From assembly GCF_001618865.1 (NCBI RefSeq), contig NZ_CP015136.1:6111001-6175000 (forward strand): a DNA stretch of 64,000 nt, read 5' to 3'. The number at the start of each line of letters is the position of its first letter. Within the stretch, counting starts at the first letter, position 1. The notes beneath the pieces are model-generated. The model was not told the DNA's origin. It searched no databases and was given only the letters and a program-made list of their open reading frames with translations. Positions 31,343-32,917 of this stretch are shown here, in pieces. The DNA comes from Luteitalea pratensis (GTDB lineage Bacteria; Acidobacteriota; Vicinamibacteria; Vicinamibacterales; Vicinamibacteraceae). The translations under genes were made by a program, and so were the position numbers.

Positions 31343-32917
31343 ATGACGAGGCGGCGGACCTTTGTCCTCTCGAATTTGCGCCGTTGCGGTGCCAGTCTCC
31401 TCGTCATGGGCTTGGTCGCGCTCACTTGGACGGTTTCGGGCGAGCAGGTCACGCAGCCGTCCGAGCGCGACGCTCTTCGAATCCGGCGTTCCGCGCCACC
31501 CGATTCCGCAGCGCGACAGCGCTTTCTGGCAATGTTCGCCCGGGCGTATTTTCCCGGACGAACGGGCCAACTCCTGATCGTGCCGCGTGAAGGCGACTTC
31601 ATCACGCGGGCTGACCCGAACGTCGAGTATATGCATGGGTCGCCCTGGTCCTATGACGTCTCGATTCCGCTGATGTTTGCGGGCCCTGCGGTGAAGACCG
31701 GTGTGTTCTCGGTCCCAGCCGCGCAGCAGGACGTCGCTCCTACGCTTGCGGTGGCGCTTGGCGTGCAGATGCCCCCGACAGCAACAGGCCGGATATTACC
31801 GGTTTTGCGGAGCGGCTTTGCTCGACCGCGAGTCGTGATGCTGCTCGTCCTGGATGGCATGCGCCGGGATTACTTCGATCGCTACGCCGCGTCGATGCCA
31901 ACGCTGACCGCTCTGCGTCGGCAAAGTGCCTGGTTCACTCAGGCGCAGGTGAACGTTCTGCCTAGCAATACCGCAGTGGGGCACTCGACGATCTCGACAG
32001 GCGCCGATCCTCGCGTGCACGGAATCACCGGCGTGAGCGTGTACGATCGCGCTCAGGGACGGCGCCACGACCTGTTCGCTGGAGGACTGCCGCACGATCT
32101 GGTGGCACTGACGCTGGCAGACGTCTGGCAGCTCGCGACGGCTGGTCGCGCCATCGTATTAGCACAGGGCAGCATCGACCGAGCGGCGACGCCGCTCGCG
32201 GGGCATGGGGCGTGTCAGTTGAATGGAGCGCCAGTCGTGCTTGCCAGCTACGATCAACAAACGGGCAACTGGACCACGAACCCCAATTGCTTCCGGCTGC
32301 CCGCGTACGTGAAGGATCGAAATGCGAGCGCCCTGTGGCAGGCTGACGGTGAGTGGATGAGTCACAAAATTGACTCGGCTGCCGCGGTGCGCTATTCGGC
32401 TCTATTTCCGGCATTCGAAGCCGATGCGATGACGGCGATGATTGAGCGCGAGCCAGTGGGCGCCGACAACGTCGCGGATCTCATTCTGCTCAACTACAAG
32501 GGCGCCGATTTCGTGGGCCACAAGTACGGTCCGGATTCGAGCGAGCTCCGCGTCACTCTCGGCGCGATGGACCGTCACCTGGCGCGAATGCTGCGAGCGC
32601 TGGAGGCGAAGGTTGGTAACAACTATCTGCTTGCCGTGACCGCAGACCATGGCATGCCGTCGGAACCGTCGTCGCCGGACCGTCGACACTTTGCGCAGTC
32701 GATCGTAGACCTGTTGCACGAGAGGTTTGATCCTGAGGCGAAGCAGCTGATTACATCCTTCGAACCGGAGAACAGCCAACTGTTCGTCGATGAGGACCGG
32801 CTGTCGGCTCTTCATCTGACGTTGCGCGATCTGGCGCACGTTCTCGAATCACAGCCGTTCGTTTTTGCGGTTTTCACTCACGACGACGTGCGGCTTGCGG
32901 CTAACGCCGCGAAGTGA
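31343..32917 (+). CDS. Exported alkaline-phosphatase-superfamily phosphodiesterase with permuted domain order
   Basis: The central/C-terminal part is a type I phosphodiesterase/nucleotide pyrophosphatase core: metal ligand Asp171 in [11 protein letters not shown], nucleophile Thr210 in [28 protein letters not shown] and [10 protein letters not shown]. Residues ~70-155 ([15 protein letters not shown], then [19 protein letters not shown], then [11 protein letters not shown]) correspond to the segment that in ordinary members ends the protein. That segment includes a metal-binding His (here His99). The order is thus C-part first, core second. An N-terminal hydrophobic stretch ([15 protein letters not shown]) indicates export. 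Substrate unknown. Confidence 0.75.

Follow-up and report, generated by a model that had tools for sequence, protein, structure and literature searches.

The alkaline phosphatase superfamily is a standard model for the evolution of catalysis and of catalytic promiscuity, and its members share a common order of sequence blocks, in which a His-bearing block lies C-terminal to the Asp/Thr core. In PhoK/SPAP (PDB 3q3q, 5xwi, 5xwk), one of the closest described systems, the first metal (M1) is bound by His491, His304 and Asp300, the second (M2) by His346, Thr89, Asp345 and Asp49, and the phosphate is contacted by Arg173, Asn110 and Lys171, as given in excerpts of the source paper, which also report a Gln following the first metal Asp for two monoester enzymes (PMC3145672). 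The other close system is PafA (PDB 5tj3, 5too), homologues of which have been reported outside Bacteroidetes, including Acidobacteria, with no remark on permutation in the excerpted text (PMC8812569). Natural permutation as such is documented in other enzyme superfamilies, at least in the available portions of the respective sources: the permuted SGNH hydrolases AlgX, AlgJ and PatB1 keep their active-site geometry, which is that of a Ser-His-Asp triad and not of a two-metal site (PMC9487903), and the PutA barrel and a GlpX-like phosphatase are further cases in other folds (PMC3779223). In the accessible part of the latter source, a survey of structural outliers from 2013, the alkaline-phosphatase-like superfamily (nine members) figures only for an insertion and not for a permutation. 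No word starting with "permut" occurs in a 2024 review of the superfamily (PMC11677397), and among the matches listed from the open-licence literature, the retrieved passages name no permuted member.

Within the window, i.e. the whole stretch of 64,000 nucleotides from Luteitalea pratensis that was analysed, positions 31343-32917 (+) hold a single intact ORF running from an ATG at 31343 to a TGA at 32917 and encoding a protein of 524 aa (P0001), on which all features below are given for the same strand. Residues 1-51 (31343-31495) comprise a signal-peptide-like hydrophobic stretch, with a mean hydropathy of 2.29 for the best hydrophobic 12-mer, and a low-confidence linker; judging from the sequence, the product is presumably exported. 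Residues ~55-154 (31505-31804) correspond in sequence matches to the PafA/PhoK-type C-terminal block, which in relatives of normal order forms the end of the domain (PafA 447-529), and here precede the catalytic core (residues 162-524). Between them, the former C-terminus is linked to the former N-terminus by a short junction (residues 155-161; 31805-31825), which is delimited by alignments and spanned by tblastn matches in relatives. The first part of the core runs from the first metal Asp as far as a point shortly after the TADHG motif (residues 162-450; 31826-32692), as delineated by Pfam, PafA and profile matches, and the remainder (residues 451-524; 32693-32914) is a lobe bearing the new C-terminus, at which the PafA chain continues into the block. 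The initial annotation had placed the HGSPWSYD segment ahead of the Asp/Thr core, and this order, read directly from the chain, is confirmed: HGSPWSYD occupies residues 98-105 and [11 protein letters not shown] residues 130-140, with both D171 and T210 downstream, and the matches to PafA and PhoK are beyond chance. Only the numbering of the metal-binding His has to be amended, from 99 to 98 (codon 31634-31636).

The rotation is seen when the whole protein is compared with PafA, its best match in both sequence and fold (E 1.4e-30), since query residues 158-241, 364-441 and 68-152 align with PafA 14-99, 269-347 and 447-529, respectively. Taken alone (107 aa), the block matches PafA 448-529 (E 3.3e-6) and PhoK 456-547 (E 2.4e-4). 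The same genome encodes three proteins with these blocks in normal order, namely the two closest relatives and one that is further removed (L096); a normal-order relative in this genome (C1:1474260-1475747) matches query residues 156-444 and then 55-153. Regarding family models, PF01663 (Phosphodiest) is found at residues 165-478 with E 3.5e-34 and well above its gathering cut-off (119.4 vs. 23 bits) but along profile positions 1-258 of 342 only, so that the standard model describes the permuted protein only in part, and the N-terminal block has no Pfam match at E values of up to 1. The hits to the NCBIfam models of PafA (NF042991; 164.6 bits vs. a cut-off of 650) and PhoY are split into three stretches and lie far under the cut-offs. 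As the usual order is a description of known members and homology is clear, the protein, which departs from that order, is better designated as a permuted relative than as an ordinary member of the superfamily. One uninterrupted ORF together with a rotated order of matches supports the frame-intact circular permutation that had been proposed.

A tandem fusion with deletion that arose by chance, or a faulty assembly, in this one genome could produce the same arrangement, and the base composition offers some ground for such an accident. The GC3 of the permuted gene is 0.716, and of nine nearby ORFs used for comparison seven lie at 0.83-0.91 and two at 0.69 and 0.78, which marks the gene as unusual at this place. 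Against an accident stand the homologues of the same order that a database search recovered, as the initial annotation had suggested looking for. Of 396 Acidobacteriota genomes, 14 matched, 13 of them with a total of 14 full-length copies and one (G019) with a decayed copy, and a junction-spanning query searched by tblastn returned the identical 14 genomes. A pattern scan of the genome_contigs set, which detects close relatives only, yielded eight loci, all with the block first and one on a proteobacterial-looking contig; five are complete, two are cut by contig ends (L013, L016) and one contains a gap of N (L014). The existence of same-order homologues thus answers the proposal of a fusion without any, and refutes an accident in one genome, the chance of which is now negligible. 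In other words, other bacteria carry the same rearranged enzyme and have preserved its metal-binding residues, so that the rearrangement looks real and inherited rather than a sequencing accident.

Among 60 relatives searched, 13 matched, namely eight genomes with full-length copies (nine copies, that of the window included), the genome with the decayed copy and four through normal-order proteins only; within the genus of the window, represented by five genomes, the gene is present only in the genome of the window. A full-length copy is also carried by one gammaproteobacterial MAG (L015/L065), and a search of 398 genomes of the phylum of this MAG returned a single match, the seed itself. Permuted copies are found at 39-92% identity. 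When 66 matching ORFs, some of which are overlapping copies of single genes, were tested with profiles, 25 had the block first, 33 had it last and eight had one part only; none of them had it at both ends, as an intermediate would. Plasmid records matched in 14 cases, none over more than 80% of the query, and the seven of these that were inspected are in normal order, with L115 split over two frames; the phages searched gave no match. As for the decayed copy (G019:C32:163299-164409, -; L024/L030), most of its N-terminal block has been lost between PGRSG and GRVL and a frame change is present in the core.

For phylogenetic analysis, the parts of 21 permuted and 28 normal-order proteins were brought into one order, leaving out overlapping copies (L004, L005, L007, L091, L097) and incomplete ones (L013, L014, L016, L074). 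In a quick tree of the 49 rows, the permuted sequences all lie on the same side of a single branch (SH-aLRT 99), and in a careful tree of 47 rows, from which the long rows L096 and L115 were removed, one branch splits the 21 permuted from the 26 normal-order proteins with support of 100/100, being present in 100% of 200 bootstrap trees. Placement on a single branch is a direct result of both trees, which are unrooted; since the remainder of the superfamily has the normal order, the rotated order is taken as derived.

The copy of the window is nearest to one in a genome of another family of the same order (G029; 92% identity), then to those of MAGs labelled Pyrinomonadaceae, gp1 and Terriglobia, and shares no neighbours with its nearest relatives. 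In the gammaproteobacterial MAG, the permuted phosphatase is 70% identical and lies near genes for an IS3-like integrase, UvrB and ThrS. For this ThrS, 52 of the 55 other genomes searched in the class of the MAG have matches of 47-68% identity, and 55 of 60 Acidobacteriota genomes have matches of 38-54%; despite these overlapping ranges, the contig looks proteobacterial because the best matches (60-68%) all fall within the class of the MAG. On the sequence evidence, a phosphatase of 70% identity on such a contig points to transfer between phyla. The integrase gene (L065:9480-10340, -) adjoins the permuted gene and is a possible vehicle.

At the level of single residues, the two-metal site of the superfamily (Asp, Thr/Ser nucleophile, Asp-His, Asp...His and His) is found in the sequence. 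The initial annotation had stated that all metal and nucleophile motifs are present, which is borne out by the alignment, where the apparent equivalents of the seven PhoK residues are kept in 21/21 permuted rows, a conservation that is observed directly: His98 (31634-31636), aligned with the M1 zinc ligand PhoK His491 as named in the excerpted ligand list (PMC3145672), Asp389 and His393 (32507-32521) for M1, and Asp171 (31853-31855), the nucleophile Thr210 (31970-31972), Asp435 and His436 (32645-32650) for M2. The HGxPWxYD motif around His98 is as conserved as the other ligand motifs. Arg280 (32180-32182), the equivalent of PhoK Arg173, is found in 20 of the 21 permuted rows, with a Tyr in the remaining one, and the equivalent of Asn110 is found in 14, the other seven, including the protein of the window, having Val.

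Altogether, the protein is very probably a PafA/PhoK-like member of the superfamily that has undergone a natural, inherited circular permutation and is exported, with the usual fold and a two-metal site completed by a relocated His98. M2 would be held by Asp171, Thr210, Asp435 and His436, with Thr210 acting as nucleophile, and M1 by Asp389 and His393 together with His98 from the other end of the chain; the old termini would have been joined by some seven residues and the chain opened within the lobe that follows the TADHG motif. Such a conserved natural permutant would mean that a metal ligand may switch chain ends and still be kept through long divergence.

Predicted structures bear on the position of His98. 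AlphaFold2, run on 20 permuted sequences without templates, gave for the whole chain a confident best model (mean pLDDT 87.4, pTM 0.85; the other four models, mean pLDDT 74.4-80.4), with pLDDT per ten residues of 33-44 for residues 1-50, 79 for 51-60 and 87-98 for 61-160. With this model, Foldseek retrieved PafA first (E 1.2e-14), and VIA-align superposed model residues 157-523 on PafA 24-449 (Z 29.1, rmsd 3.2, 354 residues), in agreement with a superfamily fold of the predicted core. The block could instead be a separate domain co-folding with the core off the active site, leaving M1 without its third ligand, a reading for which it can be argued that the aligners superpose on known structures nothing ahead of residues ~137-163; being sequential, these programs, VIA-align included, are silent on the place of a block that they leave unaligned. 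When predicted alone, the block reached a mean pLDDT of 63.4 and a pTM of 0.49, with no strand of three or more residues left. Its second half retains some confidence (67-87), as an autonomous module would, but its first half, up to ~residue 104 and including His98, drops to 38-54 against 79-95 in the whole chain and is therefore read as seemingly needing the core; a drop in a short fragment is no proof of docking, and this first half is the only part clearly dependent on the core. Besides, the pTM of 0.85 exceeds the ceiling of ~0.75 that we would estimate for a floating block, and HGxPWxYD is as conserved as the other ligand motifs. The separate-domain reading thus appears very improbable. 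The structure prediction that the initial annotation had proposed for placing the block relative to the active site accordingly gave a confident whole chain and a partial failure of the block alone, and bears on placement indirectly; in a permutant of PafA/PhoK type, His98 would reach the metal.

The permuted family also departs from its relatives at conserved positions around the active site, as compared with 26 rows of normal order, a set that excludes L096 and the broken L115. At the site of the phosphate-binding Lys (PhoK Lys171; here Ile278, 32174-32176), 21/21 permuted rows have I/A/T/V and 26/26 normal-order rows have Lys. The Gln after the first metal Asp (PhoK Gln50) is Gly/Ala in 21/21 permuted rows and Gln in 25/26 normal-order rows. 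Three residues ahead of Asp389, Lys386 (32498-32500) is Lys in 21/21 and Ser in 26/26, respectively. Cys291 and Cys316 (32213-32290), possibly forming a disulfide, are present in 21/21 and 0/26. As the exchange of Lys represents one evolutionary event, its perfect association with the rotated order does not amount to 21 independent cases. That loss of one Lys, gain of another and a Cys pair accompany permutation family-wide appears to be new from these alignments and goes beyond the initial annotation. Compared with PafA, with which all blocks, metal ligands and the Thr nucleophile are shared, the differences are the rotated blocks, the lost Lys and the Cys pair; compared with PhoK/SPAP, with which ligands, Thr nucleophile and the Arg173 equivalent are shared, they are the rotated order, the Gln50 position and the class signature of Thr89, Asn110, Lys171 and Arg173 (from excerpts of PMC3145672), from which Lys is missing in 21/21 permuted rows and Asn in 7/21. 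The ENPP-type nucleotide pyrophosphatases/phosphodiesterases have in common with the permuted protein the superfamily core, PF01663 and the absence of the phosphate Lys, but differ in block order, in overall similarity, which is below that of PafA, and in a Glu instead of Lys three residues before the metal Asp. At the same spacing as Lys386 (with Asp376 and His380), ENPP1 has a Glu, Glu373, which the excerpted texts assign to the ribose site (PMC10761680) and describe as contacting inhibitors when these are bound (PMC7466750).

The loss of the phosphate Lys in all 21 rows, together with an Asn equivalent in 14 only and a Val in the protein of the window, could be taken to mean that the fold has been kept and phosphoester turnover lost, as in a non-hydrolase or binding protein. 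The seven metal and nucleophile residues kept throughout and the Arg in 20/21 rows argue against such a change, as do the NPP-type enzymes, which are also devoid of that Lys according to the excerpted source (PMC3145672), and it is considered unlikely. From its residues, the permuted protein would most likely be an exported and active two-metal phosphoesterase with a changed, possibly diester, specificity. A shift from monoesters to diesters or another charged phosphoester, through loss of the one Lys and the presence of Lys386 near the substrate, is advanced tentatively, at a little under an even chance, as the argument draws on residues from a single evolutionary branch and is no proof of function. 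In any case, the permuted family makes the relocation of an active-site lysine testable. A broader and rather doubtful proposal is that the family constitutes a separate, horizontally spreading class in which rotation was accompanied by a rebuilding of the active site, with the phosphate-binding Lys gone from its loop, an invariant Lys newly placed ahead of a metal Asp and a Cys pair added, acting on a substrate unused by PafA, PhoK and ENPP, and with its anchor moved to the lobe. If so, the rotated chain would have its export signal or lipid anchor attached to the lobe and not to the old N-terminus, and the orientation of the active site relative to the membrane would be altered. Hydrophobic export-like leaders are present in both the permuted and normal-order groups, and a loose lipobox motif occurs in 10/21 permuted vs. 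3/28 normal-order rows, a count made without control.

Regarding gene context, 15 neighbourhoods were compared (the window and L052-L065) and, besides the permuted gene, no protein family occurs in more than four of them, by which a conserved operon partner was rejected; no neighbour in them gives a pathway. The neighbour families that are shared are mostly so within subclades; one found in four neighbourhoods and one found in two cross subclades and look generic. In the window, a 182-aa ORF (33062-33607, -) combines an HTH_18 (AraC-type) fragment at residues 6-46, below the Pfam cut-off, with the C-terminal portion of an aldo/keto reductase (profile positions 180-289 of 291), and resembles a remnant left by a deletion next to the permuted gene. 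On the other side, a 199-aa ORF (30562-31158, -) with no Pfam match and a low GC3 of 0.69 is possibly a remnant as well. Further upstream (25591-29845, +), genes of arabinofuranosidase, esterase and GH43-with-ricin-lectin type follow one another and may form a plant-polysaccharide cluster.
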